The translations under genes and the position numbers were made by a program. Positions 20,861 to 57,675 of a stretch of DNA of 64,000 nt are shown here, piece after piece. Where the stretch lies: positions 551,001 through 615,000 of the forward strand of contig JAXHNP010000006.1 in the NCBI GenBank assembly GCA_034520365.1. Reading direction: 5' to 3'. The notes below the pieces were generated by a model that did not search any database, was not told the origin of the DNA, and saw only the letters and a program-made list of their open reading frames with translations. How positions within the stretch are numbered: position 1 is the stretch's first letter; every line of letters starts with the position of its first letter. Source of the DNA: Desulfobacterales bacterium. GTDB lineage: Bacteria; Desulfobacterota; Desulfobacteria; Desulfobacterales; Desulfosalsimonadaceae.

Positions 20861-20924
20861 TGTCATTTCGAGCGCCAGCGAGAAATCTTAAGATTCCTCG
20901 TCGCTCGCGCTCCTCGGAATGACA
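20861..20924. repeat. Family B palindrome
   Basis: TGTCATTTCGAGCGCCAGCG...AATCTTAAGATT...CTCGGAATGACA, almost symmetrical around CTTAAG. It begins nine bases after the ferredoxin stop. Confidence 0.75.
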
Positions 20925-26502: not shown

Positions 26503-26772
26503 TTGGCACATCATAAGTCAGCGATCAAGCGGATTCGGCAGAATGAAAACCGTCGGCTGCAGAACCGGGCGGTCAAAACCCGGATGAAAACCGCTACCAA
26601 AAAACTCGCGAGCGCGGAAAAAAGCGGGGACATCGAGGCCCTGGCCAATGAATTGAACCGCACGAAATCCGTGATTGATAAGGCCGCGAAAAAAGGGGTC
26701 ATTCATAAGAAAACCGCCGCCCGCAGAAAATCCCGGCTGGCCCGGCGCATTAATCAGCTCTCCGCCGCTTAA
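26503..26772 (+). CDS. rpsT: 30S ribosomal protein S20
   Basis: 89 residues, basic, starting MAHHKSAIKRIRQNENRRLQNRAVKTRMKT-like and ending with RRKSRLARRINQ, the normal S20 pattern. Binds 16S rRNA at the base of the small subunit. I use TTG at 26503 because it gives the family's MA(N/H)HKSA start and has GGAG eight bases upstream; GTG 26494 would lie inside the ribosome site. A TTG start for S20 is also used in E. coli, where it limits expression. The stop overlaps that of convergent lptE. Confidence 0.94.
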   Translation: MAHHKSAIKRIRQNENRRLQNRAVKTRMKTATKKLASAEKSGDIEALANELNRTKSVIDKAAKKGVIHKKTAARRKSRLARRINQLSAA

Positions 26773-27281
26773 AACCGATCCGTTAACCGGTAATAAATCC
26801 GCTCTGCCACACGTTCGGAAAGAACGGCAATAGCGGATTTTTTATTTTGTTCGGTCCGCCATTTCTCGGGGGCGACTTCATAGGCGTCGCTGGCGGAAAT
26901 ATCGTTGGCGGACCAGATTTTTTTGCCCCCGGGATCCCGCAGCTCCACATCCAGAAACAGCGTGATGCGCCGCTCCGCCGCCTGCGTGGGGCTTTTATGG
27001 GCAATGGTGCGGATTCTGGCATTTTTGATGGTGCCGGTTAAAAGCGCTTCCGCCTCGCTTCTGTCAACAATCCGGATATTTTTAAACCGGGTGAACTGGT
27101 TGACCAGGTCATTGGTCAACAGGGTTTCAATGCCCGTCTCCCCGCTTCTGTTCTCGAATATACCGATGCTTACCGTCTTTATGCCTTCCGGCAGATCCCC
27201 CCCGCCGGAAAAGTGATAGCCGCAGGCGGCTGTCAGCAGTAAAGCTGAAGAAAGGGCAATAAGTATTATTCGGGGCAGCAT
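26769..27281 (-). CDS. lptE: LPS-assembly lipoprotein LptE
   Basis: 170 residues. Signal peptide with lipobox LTAAC (Cys20) followed by GYHFSG, typical of LptE. Then IKTVSIGIFENRSGETGIETLLTNDLVNQFTR and LDVELRDPGGKKIW. LptE plugs the LptD barrel that inserts lipopolysaccharide in the outer membrane. It is convergent with rpsT and the two TAA stops interlock (26769-26772), leaving no room for a terminator between them. Confidence 0.88.
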   Translation of the reverse strand: MLPRIILIALSSALLLTAACGYHFSGGGDLPEGIKTVSIGIFENRSGETGIETLLTNDLVNQFTRFKNIRIVDRSEAEALLTGTIKNARIRTIAHKSPTQAAERRITLFLDVELRDPGGKKIWSANDISASDAYEVAPEKWRTEQNKKSAIAVLSERVAERIYYRLTDRF

Positions 27282-27378
27282 AAATGTTATAAGCTTATTT
27301 TATTCGGGTTGTTTTGGTAACCAGTTTAATAGTTTTTGCTCTATATCTGATCATCGCGTTGATTTCATCTTTCCGCTA

Positions 27379-27481
27379 TGTCATTCGAGGCGCGGCACAA
27401 GTTTTCCGCTATGTCATTCCGAGGCGCGTGAGCGCCGAGGAATCTTGAAAAAAAGATTTCTCGCTGTCGCTCGAAATGACA
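27379..27481. repeat. Family B: empty palindrome plus half-unit
   Basis: 27379-27411 is one ~34 bp half-unit. 27412-27481 is a full palindrome: left half ending GAGGAATCTT at 27446, short centre GAAA, right half AAAAGATTTCTCGCTGTCGC...ATGACA from 27451. The same left and right halves, and about 45 bp of further right flank to ~27528, recur around the GIY-YIG gene at 27772-28173. This copy is thus the empty version of that locus. Confidence 0.85.
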
Positions 27482-27636
27482 GAGCGTTTAGTTATTGGCG
27501 GAGATAAAAAGTGATAAACGGCCGGCAATAATGATTCCCCGTAATTCATTGCCGTAGTATAGGGCATTGTGTATTGCCATTCCATAAGCCGTCAGGCTGC
27601 CGCTTTGTAATTTCCTATGCCTCAATCTTTCCGCCC

Positions 27637-27806
27637 TGTCATTCCAAGGCGTGGCATAAGTTTTCCCTATGTCATTATCGAGGCGTGGCACAAGTTTCCC
27701 GCTATGTCATTCCAAGACGTGGCATAAGTTTTCCCTATGTCATTCCGAGGCGCGGCACAAGTTTTCCGCTATGTCATTCCGAGGCGCGTGAGCGCCGAGG
27801 AATCTT
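27637..27806. repeat. Family B tandem array, ~34 bp period
   Basis: TGTCATT starts at 27637, 27670, 27705, 27738 and 27772, i.e. every 33-35 bases. The unit reads TGTCATTCCGAGGCGCGGCA followed by CAAGTTTTCCGCTA with variation. There are no unique spacers, so it is not a CRISPR array. The last unit becomes the left half of the palindrome that ends directly at the stop of the GIY-YIG gene. Confidence 0.8.
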
Positions 27807-28097
27807 CTATAATTCAAAGCTCAAATCCTTCCATTCCGGATTCGTTTGGCTCACCAGTTGATCCTTTTTGCTTCTTCGCCACCCCTTTATTTCCTTTTCC
27901 CTGGCAATCGCAGATCTTACCTCTTTTACCGTTTCAAAATAGACCAGTTTGAAAACATTATATTTTTGGGTAAAGCCATCGGCTGATTTGTTTTGGTGCT
28001 GATAAATGCGTTTTTTCAAATCGCTGGTTATGCCTGTGTACATGACCCTATTGTTCCAGTTGGTGAGTATGTAAACATAAAACTGTTTTTCGTTCAA
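27807..28097 (-). CDS. Single-domain GIY-YIG endonuclease, nested in a family B palindrome
   Basis: 96 residues of the UPF0213/YhbQ-like GIY-YIG group: YVYILTN (YVY 7-9), MYTGITSDLKKRIYQH (YTG 20-22, Arg30, His34), acidic AREKEIKGW (Glu67/Glu69) and NPEW near the end. The start is TTG at 28097 (alternatives few; MNEKQFYVYI fits the family), the stop TAG at 27807. The stop immediately follows the left palindrome half (ends 27806), and two bases of the start codon belong to the right half, so the gene exactly occupies the loop of the repeat. Physiological role of this family is unclear; a link to repeat movement is inference from this position. Confidence 0.9.
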   Translation of the reverse strand: MNEKQFYVYILTNWNNRVMYTGITSDLKKRIYQHQNKSADGFTQKYNVFKLVYFETVKEVRSAIAREKEIKGWRRSKKDQLVSQTNPEWKDLSFEL

Positions 28098-28218
28098 AAG
28101 ATTTCTCGCTGTCGCTCGAAATGACAGAGCGTTTAGTTATTGGCGGAGATAAAAAGTGATAAACAGCCGGCGATAATCATATCCGAGTACGAGTACGATT
28201 ACGAGTACGAATCAGGGC
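28098..28218. repeat. Right half of GIY-YIG-bearing palindrome, duplicated flank and GAGTAC run
   Basis: 28096-28173 matches 27451-27528 almost exactly (right half plus GAGCGTTTAGTTATTGGCGG and the following ~25 bases). 28183-28212 is a short run of GAGTAC/GATTAC hexamers. The leuS stop follows at 28250. Confidence 0.75.
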
Positions 28219-28249
28219 GTTATGTCATGAAAAAGTGCCGCTGCGGCGG

Positions 28250-30841
28250 TCATACCACCACATTCACCAGCTTATCCTTAACCACGATAATCTTTTTGAT
28301 GTCTTTGCCTTCGGTGAAGCGCCGGACGTTTTCATCGGCCAGGGCGTGCTCCTTGATAGCCTCCTCATCGGCATCCGCGGCGATTTCAAACCGGCCCCGG
28401 AGCTTGCCGTTTACCTGAACCACCATCTGCTTGGTGTCTGATACCAGGGCATCCTCGCGAAACTCCGGCCACCAGGCGGCAGACAGGGTGCCGGGCGCAT
28501 AACCCATGGCCGCCCAGAGCTCTTCCGTGATATGCGGCACCACAGGCGCCAGCAAAAGCACCACCGTTTCCACCGCATGCCGCATGACGCCGGCGGCCTG
28601 TTCCTTCTTCAGATCCAGGTCAGCCGTGTACATGGCGTTTACCAGCTCCATCACCGCACTGATCGCGGTGTTGAAGTGAAACCGCTCCTCGATGTCCGTG
28701 GTGACCTTTTGAATGGTCTGGTGGGTTTTGGCGAAAAGTTTTTTGGATGCCTGATCCAAATCCGCCAAATCGCCGTCAAACGGCTTGACTGTTTCAATAT
28801 CGGCCTGAAGATCCTTAATCAGCCGCCAGACCCGGTTTAAAAACCGGAATCCGCCTTCAACCCCCTGCTCGCTCCACTCAAGGCTCCGCTCCGGCGGGGC
28901 GGCAAACAGGCAGAAGAGCCGCACCGTGTCCGCGCCGTATTCTTCCAGCAGCACATTGGGGTCGATCACGTTTTTTTTGGATTTGGACATCTTCTCCACC
29001 CGGCCCACTTCGGCCAGGCTCCCGCACATCCGGCAATAGGGCTGATCATTCCGGAAATCGGTCTCCTCCGGATAGAGAAACCCGTGCTCCGGGCATTTTA
29101 CGGTCTCCTTGCAGACCATGCCCTGGGTCAGAAGCCGGGTGAAGGGCTCCTTGAAATCCACCAGCCTCATGTCTTTTAACACCCGGGTAAAATAGCGGGA
29201 GTAGAGCAGGTGCATCACCGCATGCTCCACCCCGCCGATGTACTGATCCACCGGCATCCAGTAGCCCACCGCTTCAGGGTCGAACATGCCTGCGTCATGA
29301 TGCGGGCTGCAGTAGCGCTCAAAATACCAGGAGGACTCCACAAACGTATCCATGGTATCGGTCTCGCGCCGGGCCGGCGCCCCGCACCTGGGGCAGGTGG
29401 TGTTGACAAAGGAATCCGTGGTGGCAAGGGGCGATCCGCCGCCTTCAAGCAGATCCACGTCTTCGGGAAGGACCACCGGCAGATCCGCCTCTGATACCGG
29501 CACCGCGCCACAGGCGTCGCAGTGGATGATCGGAATGGGCGCGCCCCAGTATCGCTGCCGGGAGATGCCCCAGTCCCGTATCCGATAGGAGATCGCTTTT
29601 TTTCCGATGCTATGCTTTTCAAAGTAGTCGGTAATGGCATCCTTGGCTGCACCGCTCTCCATACCGGTAAAGTCGCCGGAGTTGACCAGCAGGCCTTCGT
29701 CCGCATAGGCTTCGGTCTGCGCCACCTGTTCAACCGGCGTATCCCTGGGGCAGATAACCGGCACGATCTCTAAGTCGTATTTTTGGGCAAAATCAAAATC
29801 GCGCTGGTCATGGGCGGGAACAGACATAACCGCCCCTGTGCCGTATTCCATTAAGGCAAAGTTGGCGATATAGACGGGCATGCGCCGGCCGGTCATGGGG
29901 TTTTTGCACCAGGCGCCGATAAACAAGCCCTCCTTTTCATAGTTTTCAAGCAGCCGGTCAGAGCGGCTTTGAAGCGCCATGCGCTCGACAAACGAATCCA
30001 CCTCTTCTTCTCGGCCGGTTCCCCGGGACAGGGGTTTGACCAGCGGATGCTCCGGGGCCAGGCACATGAACGTAGCACCGAAAATCGTGTCCGGCCGGGT
30101 GGTAAACACATCGATTGATTCATCTGAATCTTCGACCGCAAACCGGATTTCCGCACCGACACTTTTGCCGATCCAGTTTCTCTGCATGGTGGTCACTTTT
30201 TCCGGCCAGCCGGGCAGCTTGTCGCAGTATTGCAGCAGATCCTCGGCATAGTCGGTGATTTTAAAAAACCACTGGGTGAGCTTCTTCTGCCGCACGGGCT
30301 TGCCGCAGCGCCAGCATTCGCCGGCTTCCACCTGCTCATTGGCAAGTACGGTCTGGCAGGTTTCGCACCAGTTGACATGGGATTCGCCCTGATAGGCCAT
30401 CCCATTTTCAAACATTTTGAGAAACAGCCACTGCTCCCATTTGTAATATTGCGGCGCACAGGTGGCGATCTCCCGGTCCCAGTCATAGCTGTATCCCAGG
30501 CGCTTTAACTGCTCGCGCATGGCGTCGATGTTGGCATAGGTCCATTTCGCCGGGTGGGTGTTGTTGGCGATGGCCGCGTTTTCCGCCGGCATGCCGAAGG
30601 CATCCCAGCCCATGGGGTGGAGCACGTTAAACCCGCGCATGCGCTTGTACCGGGCGATGACATCGCCGATGGTGTAGTTTCGGACGTGGCCCATATGGAT
30701 TTTGCCGGAGGGGTAGGGAAACATCTCCAGCAGATAATATTTTTCCCGGGACGGGTCTTCGCGGGCCTTGAACTGTTTGTTATCATCCCAGACAGACTGC
30801 CATTTCGGCTCTATTTGTTTCGGATCGTATCGTGTTTCCAT
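28250..30841 (-). CDS. leuS: Leucyl-tRNA synthetase
   Basis: 863 residues. HIGH-type motif HMGH (49-52) in [22 protein letters not shown]1 editing domain with [21 protein letters not shown] and [19 protein letters not shown], zinc-type [25 protein letters not shown], and KMSKS in [15 protein letters not shown]-terminal anticodon and LeuRS-specific domains are complete. ATG 30841 lacks a clear ribosome site. Confidence 0.97.
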
Positions 30842-32961: not shown

Positions 32962-33297
32962 TTGGGTGTTAATTGGGTGTTAGGTATTGGGTATTAGGTA
33001 TTAGGAAAAACAGCAGGAAGGCTGAAGCCTTCCCCTACATTGATTTCGGGTTTGCATAAAACTTATTCGAGATTCTTTTGATGTTCTTTTAAAGAGCGGT
33101 TTATTGCGCCGAGACAGAGTTTCTGCAGAAAGCAACTAAAAAAGGTGCTCAAAATCTATCCATACTGTCATTTCGAGCGTTAGCGAGAAATCTTTAAATA
33201 AGATTCCTCGGCACTATCGTTCCTCGGAATGACAATGGCGAAATGATCGGGAATAACGAAATATATTATTGAGTTCCTTGGAATCTAAGGAGGAGAA
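32962..33297. repeat. Gap with GGTATTAGG run and family B palindrome
   Basis: 32962-33005 is a GGGTGTTAGGTATT-type run (family E). 33166-33234 is a family B palindrome. AAGGAGGAG just before 33298 is the yajC ribosome site. Nothing else seen. Confidence 0.6.
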
Positions 33298-33654: not shown

Positions 33655-34063
33655 GCAAGGCAAAAATTTGTTCCATATGATTTTTCGGCAGGCACAGTGG
33701 CCTGCCCTACGGCAATTATGCCGGAATTTTGTAGGGTCGGCCACCGGGCCGACCAACTGAACTTGATTTGTAAAATTTAACCTGCTAAAAGGCATTGAGA
33801 TCTGAGGCACTGAGCATTGAGATAATATAATAAGGATTTATTTTTTGGACTCTTACATCTCAATATCATTAATATCAACTTGGCGCCCTGTCATTCCGAG
33901 GAGCGACAGCGACGAGGAATCTTGAAAGAAAGATTTCTCGCTGGCGCTCGAAATGACCAACAGGCCGATCTCTCGGGTTAATGGCATTGCCTTATAGTTG
34001 AAGCCTAATACCTAAAAACCTAACACCTAAAACCTTATTTTAATATTACAAGAGGAATCCGGT
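33655..34063. repeat. Gap with families A, B and E
   Basis: 33663-33754 is a family A fragment (worn left end AAAATTTGTTCC and both palindromes; no right end). 33889-33957 is a family B palindrome. 33999-34037 is a CCTAATACCTAAAAACC run (family E). The repeats separate yajC from secD, which are usually nearly adjacent. Confidence 0.65.
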
Positions 34064-45554: not shown

Positions 45555-46048
45555 TTGTTTCTCCATTTTTGGTCTCGAGGAGGCCGGGCGCATCCATACC
45601 CGGCTGTCATTCTGGGCGACAATTTGCCGCTGCTGTCATTCCGAGCGGCAGCGAGGAATCTTAAGATTCCTCGTCGCTGTCGCTCCTCGGAATGACAGTG
45701 GCAAAGGTTGTCGCTCCGCGGAATGACATGGCCGAAAGCGTTCGGGTTTCGGTCGGCGCGGTGGCCGACCCTACGATGGTTTGGCATCATGCACAGCCTG
45801 TGTAGGGCGGGCCACCGTGCCCGCCGTAAAAAGCTCCATGCACAGTCTGTGTAGGGCGGGCCACCGTGCCCGCCGTAAAAAGCTTGCAGGCCGGGTATCC
45901 ATACCCGGCTGTCATCCTATAAAAAAGACCGCATCCTTTAAGTCCCCCTTTATTATTGCAAAGGGGGATTTAATTGACTTCCTCCCCATATTAAGATACA
46001 AATCCGCTTAAAACAAGGATAACTCTCAACAAACCAAAGGATCAAATC
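45555..46048. repeat. Gap with families A, B and F
   Basis: 45634-45697 is a family B palindrome. 45789-45830 and 45841-45882 are two direct copies of CTGTGTAGGGCGGGCCACCG plus TGCCCGCCGTAAAAAGCT (family A core). GGCCGGGTATCCATACCCGGCTGTCAT (~45889) and its near-inverse at 45584-45612 are an additional pair. 45939-45972 is a family F fragment. Confidence 0.65.
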
Positions 46049-46705: not shown

Positions 46706-47165
46706 AGTTCACAGTTCACAGTTCACGGTTCACAGTCAATAGTTAAGAAATTTCAAATTTCAAATAATAAACAAATCTCAAATTCCAAGCACCAAATATC
46801 AAACAAATCTCAAATAACAAATTCCAAATATCAAACAAGACCCCCTCGGCCGCTGTCATTCCGAGCGGATAGCGAGGAATCTTGAGTGTTAGCGAGGGAT
46901 TTTAAGATTCCTCGTCGCTGTCGCTCCTCGGAATGACAGTAGCAAAGGTTGTTGCTCCTCGGAATGACAGGGGCAAAACCCTGAAGGGTCGGCACGGTGG
47001 CCGACCTTCGGCCGCTGTCATTCCGAGCGGATAGCGAGGAATCTTAAGATTCCTCGTCGCTGTCGCTCCTCGGAATGACATTAGCAAAGGCTGTCGCTCC
47101 TCGGAATGGCAGGGGCAAAACCCTGAAGGGTCGGCACGGTGGCCGACCCTACGACTCTGAACTTT
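46706..47165. repeat. Gap filled with families D, C, B and A
   Basis: 46706-46740: GTTCACAGTTCACGG run (D). 46745-46848: CAAATTTCAAATAATAAACA... (C, left arm only). 46854-46938 and 47016-47080: two family B palindromes, each preceded by CGGCCGCTGTCATTCCGAGC. Between and after them AACCCTGAAGGGTCGGCACG with GGTGGCCGACC occurs twice (46976, 47118), so a ~140 bp block is duplicated in tandem. Confidence 0.7.
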
Positions 47166-50896: not shown

Positions 50897-51399
50897 AAAT
50901 AATAGTTCACAGTTTAAGGTTCAGGGTTTAAGGTTCAGGGTTCACGGTTCACAGTTCACAGTTCACAGTTCACGGTTCACGGTTAAATTACAAATTTCAA
51001 ACAATAACTAAATCTCAATGACCCAAATTTCAAGCGCATGTTCCCCATTGCCCTTGTTTGATATTTGGTGCTTGTAATTTGGTGCTTGGAATTTGAGATC
51101 TGTTTGTCATTTGGTGCTTGGAGTTTGGTGCTTGTTTGTCATTTGATGCTTGTAATTTGGGATTTGTTTGTTTTTTGGTGCTTGAAATTTGAGATTTAGC
51201 AATAACAAGGCTGTCATTTCGAGCGGCAGCGAGAAATCTTAAGATTCCTCGTCGCTGTCGCTCCTCGGAATGACAGGGGCAAAAAGCTATCGCACCCATC
51301 CCCCTTTTCCACTATTGCCAAATGGCACAATAATAAAAGAGGGACTTAAATGAGTTTGTCTGTTTCAAAGAGGGACTTAAAGGACTCTGTATTTATTAA
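50897..51399. repeat. Gap filled with families D, C, B and F
   Basis: 50903-50983: GGTTCAGGGTTTAAGG and GTTCACAGTTCACAG units (D). 50988-51200: ATTTGGTGCTTGTTTGTCATT-type arms (C). 51212-51275: family B palindrome with AATCTTAAGATT centre. 51296-51390: AAGAGGGACTTAAA occurs twice (F-like). Confidence 0.65.
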
Positions 51400-53211: not shown

Positions 53212-53505
53212 TATTCCTTTGCCTAAACTGACCCTGAACTCAATGTCATTAACTTTAGCCTTCCGCCACTGTCATTTCGAGGAACGACAGTGACGAGAAA
53301 TCTTAAAAATGCATGCAATGAAAAGATTTCTCGCTGGCGCTCGAAATGACCAATGCGTTCATACGTAATTGGTTTGGAATTTTGGTCATTGAAATTTGGT
53401 GCTTGTTTGTAATTTGTAATTTGCGATTTGGTGCTTAATTGTGAACCGTCAACCGTGAACTGTGAACTGTGAACCGTGAACTCTGAACCCTACACCCACA
53501 CCTTC
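53212..53505. repeat. Gap with families B, C (arm) and D
   Basis: 53270-53350: family B palindrome with a 26-base loop containing GCATGC. 53380-53440: GAAATTTGGTGCTTGTTTG arm (C). 53443-53500: GAACCGTCAACCGTGAACTG and further GTGAACTGTGAACC units (D), running up to the end of the next gene. Confidence 0.65.
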
Positions 53506-57313: not shown

Positions 57314-57675
57314 AAATGGGTTCACGGTTCGAAGTTCACAGTTCACAGTTCAGGGTTCACGGTTCATGGTTCAAGGCTTAAAAAACTTTGTGCCTTAGGT
57401 GGTGAAAATTTCAAATTTCAAATTTCAAATCCCAAATAACAAACAAATCTCAAATTCCAAGCATCAAATATCAAACAAAACCATTTGTTGTTAAACTCTT
57501 TGGGCATTCCGAGGAGCGCAAGCGGCGTCCCCACCGTCATTCCGAGGAGCCAAGCGACGAGGAATCTTAAGATTTCTCGCTGTCGGCTCGAAATGACAGC
57601 AGCGGAAAAGAATCTCTTTTCCGCTGCTGTGTTATCTCAACAAAATCGAGATGTCATACGGTTAAGCGCAATTTT
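57314..57675. repeat. Gap with families D, C and B
   Basis: 57318-57375: GTTCACAGTTCACAGTTCAGG run (D). 57408-57482: CAAATTTCAAATTTCAAATC... (C, left arm). 57537-57599: family B palindrome, followed by a separate hairpin at 57597-57629. Confidence 0.65.
57597..57629 (-). terminator. Strong hairpin downstream of TGQAG protein 2
   Basis: Perfect 15 bp stem CAGCAGCGGAAAAGA / TCTTTTCCGCTGCTG with a three-base loop, 47 bases after the stop at 57676. There is no U-run, so it may be an mRNA 3' stabiliser or a factor-assisted terminator rather than a classical one. Confidence 0.55.

Follow-up and report, generated by a model that had tools for sequence, protein, structure and literature searches.

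A small GIY-YIG nuclease gene lies between inverted CGTC-class REP repeats in many bacterial phyla and is probably the missing partner of these repeats

A gene encoding a small GIY-YIG nuclease was found between two inverted arms of a palindromic REP repeat in the genome of a Desulfobacterales bacterium. The analysed stretch of DNA (the window) is 64,000 nucleotides long and comprises positions 551,001 to 615,000 of contig JAXHNP010000006.1 (assembly GCA_034520365.1). The bracketing of the gene by REP arms recurs across phyla and, among the GIY-YIG subfamilies tested, is restricted to one; protein clades match repeat classes, the active site is conserved under purifying selection, and the gene was gained at new sites. 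The explanation that we favour, with moderate confidence, is that the protein is the dedicated enzyme of CGTC/TGTC REPs, that arm, gene and inverted arm form the complete element, that the dimers are its gene-less derivatives and that the nuclease cuts REP hairpins. The nuclease is probably the partner that had so far been missing for an entire class of bacterial repeats.

In the 4.33-Mb host genome (G000; window within contig C6) the gene is located between lptE (26769-27281, minus strand) and leuS (28250-30841, minus strand), names that come from reading the translations. The 968-bp gap between them (27282-28249) consists mostly of repeats, and is occupied by the element in the window genome and in two others, G001 and G002. 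It contains two near-identical stretches, one without the gene (27386-27535) and one with it (27746-28180). The former carries an empty palindrome (27413-27480) composed of two units (27413-27446 and 27452-27480) and a 5-nt loop. The palindrome recurs at 27773-28125, where the loop is replaced by a GIY-YIG ORF of 96 codons (27807-28097, minus strand; PF01541 match, E 3e-18). The same two arms border the gene, both with the hairpin tag pointing outward: the long arm (GTCATTCCGAG..CGAGGAATCTT, 27773-27806, plus strand) on its 3′ side, and the short arm (GTCATTTCGAGCGACAGCGAGAAATCTTT, 28097-28125, minus strand) on its 5′ side. Immediately past the left half, and abutting that arm, comes the TAG stop codon (27807-27809; plus-strand CTA), and the TTG start codon (28095-28097) lies inside the REP tail and shares two bases with the right half. 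These coordinates and codon positions confirmed the initial annotation, which had placed the gene precisely in the loop of a palindrome with an empty copy alongside. The duplication of the flanks, also described there, was found as well; the lengths given had to be corrected, the shared stretches being slightly longer, with a left 61-mer (27386-27446 and 27746-27806) of 100% identity and a right 85-mer (27451-27535 and 28096-28180) of 96% identity.

The PF01541 matches in the 4.33-Mb genome did not include a second small GIY-YIG gene; the other match, in a 621-codon frame, is probably UvrC, judging from its length. Rfam at gathering thresholds revealed no known RNA family in the region. A phage or defence gene was considered and rejected: PADLOC gave no match, and PHROG one weak match of unknown function.

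Both arms consist of a stem that starts with ATTCC/ATTTC, a 2 × 2 GA/GA internal loop and an inner stem; the GTC tag and the tail are unpaired. Folded as DNA, the long arm gave -9.9 kcal/mol (z -3.4) and the whole empty dimer (27410-27484) -18.2 kcal/mol (z -4.1); the short arm is weak alone (-2.9 kcal/mol, z -0.5). Two classes of REP were distinguished: class P has a perfect stem, like GTCATTCCGGCGAAAGCCGGAATCCAG, and class G, the window's own, has an internal loop, like TGTCATTGCGAG...GAAGCAATCT.

Exact palindromes of the form GAGGAATCTT-N0-30-AAGATTTCTCG occur 50 times in the genome, and the backward control was not found at all; a looser pattern yielded 188 single REP units. The claim that palindromes are present at many sites of the window held: a scan for the tag-outside orientation detected ten distinct dimers (11 lines, two of them overlapping). 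Dimers without a gene are located at 20863-20922, 45636-45695, 46856-46936, 47018-47078, 51214-51273, 53272-53349 and 57537-57596, and another (33168-33232) forms the centre of a MITE-like repeat of about 208 bp (33076-33283). Several repeat the long and the short arm in the same order as in the filled element (e.g. 33891-33956). When window ORFs of at least 80 aa were scored (n=50), the GIY-YIG gene alone was bordered on each side by a tag-outward REP no more than 60 nt away; an additional, mechanical ORF showed REPs at distances of 121 and 21 nt. Given 50 exact palindromes against no backward controls, and this sole bracketed ORF, the nesting is far from chance.

The repeats resemble a class that has been described. 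According to the accessible text of Di Nocera, De Gregorio and Rocco (2013; PMC3733652), REPs are divided into a GTAG and a CGTC class. In CGTC REPs the tag may also be TGTC, the stem (8-9 bp) begins with AT, the loop is 4-5 nt long and the dimers are predominantly HH (tags outside). The class includes Neisseria dRS3 (= CGTC-1) and Rickettsia RPE-4/RPE-6, and Azospirillum lipoferum and Novosphingobium aromaticivorans are among its species. The same text states that CGTC REPs 'apparently lack a dedicated transposase', and its Table 1 lists their 'association to TPAse genes' as minus; transposases were what its authors had looked for.

Our window folds and the P-class repeats share the unpaired CGTC/TGTC tag, the AT stem start and the short tail with the CGTC REPs as given in that text, and the nuclease loci of A. 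lipoferum and N. aromaticivorans sit within inverted CGTC repeats. No gap separates the repeat from the stop codon of the nuclease gene in Novosphingobium. In Neisseria gonorrhoeae the gene is likewise found among such repeats, but there the tags point inward. Stem and loop of the P class are alike in size by eye, whereas the G class has the GA/GA loop, which is missing from the families described in the part of PMC3733652 available to us, and a longer or shorter inner stem. The accessible text gives no associated enzyme; here a GIY-YIG gene is found inside the dimer. Among the open-access papers listed by literature searches, none linked GIY-YIG proteins with REPs.

The organization is reminiscent of GTAG REPs/REPINs and their RAYT (TnpA-REP). 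Both systems have short tagged hairpins and inverted dimers, and in both one low-copy gene between two inverted repeats is accompanied by many gene-less dimers. However, the enzyme described here belongs to the GIY-YIG family (only PF01541 matches) and is not an HUH-tyrosine (IS200/IS605-like) transposase, and the tag is TGTC/CGTC, not GTAG. Because both enzyme and tag differ, membership in the RAYT family is excluded and the analogy is a functional one.

The repeat edges of homologues had been set beforehand as the refuting test for the association. REPs turned out to border about half of the homologues on both sides and the majority on one side or more, and controls were almost free of them. 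The first sample (the named set) contained the best 80 of at least 575 confirmed relatives in GTDB genomes. Inverted flanks were scored for 79 loci (one had no stop codon) and bracketing for 78 (flanks below 150 nt were dropped); filters for match length and open frame left 76, or 74 for the phylum tally. Using a scan that requires a TCAT head and misses variants such as that of Novosphingobium, we detected tag-outward REPs upstream of the gene at 53 loci and downstream of it at 56, with 39 of the 78 occupied on both sides; all of these loci are among the best 80 of at least 575. Neighbouring ORFs of at least 100 aa were bracketed on both sides in 1 of 98 cases. Doubly bracketed genes (36 of the 74 rows from these best 80 of at least 575) belong to 14 named phyla; in the same sample no such row was seen for Thermodesulfobacteriota (1 row), Nitrospirota (2) and Cloacimonadota (1).

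The second sample came from the window's phylum. A search of 297 genomes (E 1e-15) yielded 88 matches in 65 genomes. Minus two (contig edge; already counted as L022), these gave 85 loci, of which 78 were scored, the drops comprising short matches, broken frames and short flanks. REPs were present on both sides in 38 and on any side in 63 of the 78, the window's gene being one of them; the remaining 15 had no recognised tag-outward REP on either side. The figures for neighbouring ORFs were 0/20 (both sides) and 2/20 (any side).

A second phylum, reached via an Anaerolineae genome, was positive in 28 of 201 genomes; 30 of 45 matches were converted to loci and 29 were scored. Both sides were occupied in 11/29 and any side in 25/29, or in 10/27 and 23/27 distinct genes, since L279/L302 and L283/L303 each represent the same gene scored twice. 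One of these loci (L281) shares both its genome and its flank calls with L037 of the named set, and the two are probably the same gene. Control ORFs of this phylum gave 0/13 (both sides) and 1/13 (any side). Control ORFs isolated by 100 nt or more of free sequence on each side were doubly bracketed in 1 of 73 cases. Compared with these, the excess was significant for the named set (Fisher p 3e-13) and for the window's phylum (9e-13). Chance nesting was ruled out by these homologue surveys and their controls.

The inverted-flank score was obtained by aligning the upstream flank to the reverse complement of the downstream flank. A score of at least 28 was reached by 43 of the 79 loci (best 80 of at least 575) and by 1 of 527 shifted controls. 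It was also attained by 10.8% of mismatched locus pairs, which we attribute to the motif being shared. From a plasmid collection, 17 of 32 records were used after removal of near-duplicates by eye: 13 of the 17 loci scored at least 28, and the motif scan found tag-outward REPs on both sides in 5. The loci below 28 were those of Photobacterium, Aeromonas, Rhizobium tumorigenes and Sinorhizobium K101.

The REPs lie close to the gene. An upstream REP was present in 101 of 157 loci, in 46 of them no more than 20 nt from the start codon, and a downstream REP in 107 of 157, in 69 of them no more than 20 nt from the stop codon; many genes end with a stop codon that is in immediate contact with the repeat. 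Both REPs were within 60 nt in 27/76 named loci and in 30/78 loci of the window's phylum.

Three observations on individual records are added here. In plasmid AZO_p3 of A. lipoferum 4B (L255) the nuclease gene (1998-2291) has a REP dimer on each side and lies between sufB and sufC. In plasmid p1 of Planktothrix agardhii (L304) it is found (1998-2282) between an MmeI-type restriction-modification gene and the DISARM gene drmA. Two N. gonorrhoeae records of about 2.17 Mb filed as plasmids (NZ_CP119140.1 and NZ_CP119142.1) look, judging from their size, like chromosomes.

The association did not extend to the other GIY-YIG genes that were scored. A relaxed search of 18 REP-rich genomes lacking a strong match yielded 14 matches in 6 of them and none in 12. 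Eleven of these genes, which we judged to belong to other GIY-YIG subfamilies, could be scored, and 0/11 had a tag-outward REP on either side; one has a tag-inward REP upstream, and for one the available downstream sequence was limited to 27 nt. The possibility that any small gene becomes bracketed in REP-rich genomes was rejected on this result and on the 1/73 isolated ORFs.

The two arms of a gene agree in hairpin class in 73 of 77 cases. Stem letters are shared by the two arms in 42 of 77, compared with a mean of 14.8 and a maximum of 26 under permutation. Repeat class changes 7 times on the protein tree, compared with 34 times when shuffled. Within the window's phylum the repeat class requires 4 changes (shuffled 19.8, minimum 14) and the host family 42 (shuffled 48.9, minimum 45); host family is therefore also clustered, but weakly, and the tree tracks repeat class far more closely. 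For the named G-class rows the stem letters change 14 times (shuffled 27.6) and the host phylum 20 times (28.1). As the tree is based on 96 columns and most of its forks are unresolved, only clustering was used. Multi-copy genomes contain diverged paralogues (40-80% identity), and in some of these genomes the paralogues differ in REP class: G143 has one P and two G, G177 one of each, and G180 one P and one G paralogue, the P repeat being on one side only. In other genomes, G306, G189 and G190 among them, one copy has no recognised REPs.

The gene and the repeats also co-occur. With relatedness uncorrected, the gene was found in 30 of 48 genomes of the window's phylum with at least 10 REP matches and in 35 of the 249 others (p 1.4e-11); the respective numbers in the second phylum were 16 of 36 REP-rich genomes and 12 of 165 others (p 3e-7). 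The pattern used for counting covers the G class only, so gene-bearing P-class genomes count as poor. A strong gene match was absent from 18 of the 48 REP-rich genomes of the window's phylum and from 20 of the 36 of the second phylum. Some of the 18 are incomplete (67-82%); others, G252 and G337 among them, are listed as 100% complete. For 43 of the 80 named loci the REP load of the genome was counted: 21 of the 43 had at least 10 matches, 8 had 5-9 and 14 fewer than 5. One genome of the second phylum (G509) has 364 REP pattern matches and no gene at E 1e-15; it may carry either an orphan repeat population or a diverged enzyme.

A comparison of filled and empty sites among relatives, which had been proposed with the initial annotation, proved informative. 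Searching for leuS gave 31 matches and 30 loci, of which 22, from genomes of the family, were inspected. The gene is present between leuS and lptE in three of these (the window genome, G001 and G002) and absent in 19/19 others, namely G003 of the same genus and 18 further family genomes. The element was thus gained within the family at this site. A further example is G313: where this genome carries an element with the gene, G224 has a short, empty site and G198 has other sequence. Filled and empty orthologous sites, as expected of a mobile element, are thus available in two cases. Since G001 and G002 carry the filled copy alone, the empty copy next to it in the window is probably younger, the result either of duplication with gene loss or of a dimer having arrived.

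The gene lies exactly in the loop of a dimer, with a filled and an empty copy adjacent, which would fit selfish homing: the nuclease would cut the centre of an empty dimer, the filled element would be copied in by repair via the homologous arms, and the gene would move from dimer to dimer. GIY-YIG is a classical homing nuclease fold, and small free-standing GIY-YIG nucleases in a mobile context are known as homing endonucleases of the phage T4 type, a likeness shared by the protein studied here. Neighbouring gene copies in G499, G453 and G426 point in the same direction. We nevertheless regard homing as unlikely. In contrast to the free-standing homing endonucleases, a multicopy palindromic repeat brackets the gene, and one filled copy against 50 exact palindromes that remain empty does not look like efficient homing into dimers. 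In the window's phylum there are at most three copies per genome, the compared paralogues (40-80% identical) are not fresh, and G001 and G002 have a filled copy without an empty one. The initial annotation had suggested a repeat family with its own homing-type nuclease, similar in logic to REPs and RAYTs; the surveys and their controls bore out the pairing with REPs, and the homing part was weakened.

The pairs of nuclease genes just mentioned are on the same strand, 0.5-0.7 kb apart (G499:C1:576893-577823, G453:C11:13550-14336 and G426:C20:875-1853).

Some dimers are part of larger repeats. The repeat of about 208 bp with the dimer at 33168 is absent from the orthologous site in G002 and G003, and G001 has a dimer there. 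A query containing two window dimers gave 89 matches in G001 and 101 in G002, many places being matched by both dimers. In G003 (71% complete) no gene was found and the same query matched three flank places only. As the MITE-like repeats of about 208 bp are many-copied in G001/G002, part of the genus's dimer spread may come from the larger repeat, and another enzyme may be behind that part. G313 also has six copies that lack the gene, their two arms being separated by 10-15 nt; the three that were read are each flanked by longer inverted ends.

It is accordingly conceivable, on the strength of the dimers of this genus and of G313 that lie within larger MITE-like repeats, that the nuclease gene is a small passenger travelling in a REP-containing MITE moved by an unrelated transposase. 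We consider this very unlikely: a single gene subfamily is involved in many phyla, repeat class tracks protein clade, and other ORFs are seldom bracketed.

MITE-like repeats centred on dimers have ends like TTGATGGC(T/G)TCGTAAAAAG (33076-33283; L267, L270-L273; L248, L250, L252). Similar ends were seen around G-class dimers in G001/G002 and around P-class dimers in G313.

Five residues of the protein (Y9, Y20, R30, E67 and N86) are each 99-100% conserved in 158 aligned rows; we take them to be the counterparts of the catalytic residues of I-TevI. The dN/dS values of the window gene were 0.137/1.64 against G001 and 0.149/1.52 against the other congener, with dS near saturation, and 0.046/0.27 was obtained between these two congeners. 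The sequences indicate a gene under purifying selection with a conserved predicted active site. The AlphaFold (AF2) model (pLDDT 90.9, pTM 0.83) has its best structural match in UPF0213 protein BH0048 (E 4e-5, TM 0.58), and its best fold matches are GIY-YIG proteins; Slx1 and UvrC follow as weak matches (E about 0.04 or higher). The initial annotation had spoken of UPF0213-type genes; BH0048 (PDB 1zg2) is no more than the nearest solved relative (E 4e-7). It has the same fold and size, but the identity is 32%. The 11 more distant small GIY-YIG genes scored in REP-rich genomes are without REP brackets.

Purifying selection, together with the weak structural likeness to the branched-DNA nuclease Slx1 (E about 0.04), would also suit a domesticated host enzyme, which removes REP hairpins or cruciforms at replication, or autoregulates via REP hairpins in its own mRNA, the repeats not being moved. 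The single-copy state of the gene in the window genome and its co-occurrence with REP load agree with such a role. Its patchy presence (65/297 and 28/201 genomes), the weak tracking of host family by the protein tree and the gain of the gene at new sites along with its arms argue against it, and we consider it improbable.

Returning to a dedicated REP enzyme, the protein would recognise and nick the hairpin that a REP arm forms in single-stranded DNA or as part of a cruciform. Host repair might then copy or relocate the repeat. A single chromosomal gene could act in trans on many repeats, the role that RAYTs are believed to have for GTAG REPs. Several observations count against this explanation: there are REP-rich genomes without the gene, 15 of the 78 loci of the window's phylum lack a recognised tag-outward REP, dimers occur within larger MITE-like repeats, the tags point inward in N. 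gonorrhoeae, and GIY-YIG nucleases are not known to join strands. A wider proposal, which we put forward tentatively and which may well fail, is that the elements form a new class: an autonomous unit of about 360 bp, consisting of two inverted hairpins and one GIY-YIG nuclease, would spread its own repeats by hairpin cutting and host replication/repair, without a transposase, integrase or reverse transcriptase of its own, and would be the cause of most TGTC/CGTC repeats including Neisseria dRS3 and Rickettsia RPEs.

Short palindromic repeats of the CGTC class are widespread, and an enzyme is now tied to them by position, orientation, co-occurrence and clade-repeat match; their origin thus becomes directly testable with one small protein. 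The results suggest that a repeat system similar to REP/RAYT may be driven by nothing more than a nuclease, and they point to a probable role for many genes whose only annotation is 'GIY-YIG nuclease family protein' (at least 575 confirmed relatives in GTDB genomes).

A minor feature of the locus is an array of tandem units directly outside the element. The units (about 22-33 bp) consist of a truncated REP head and neighbouring spacer, and occupy 27380-27412 and 27633-27772 (plus strand, units of about 33 bp) in the window. A special tie to the nuclease was considered and rejected, as such heads are equally frequent beside gene-less dimers (19/208 versus 9/96). Tandem head units also surround the gene in L012 and L013, and in G001/G002 the units differ between the two sides of the element.
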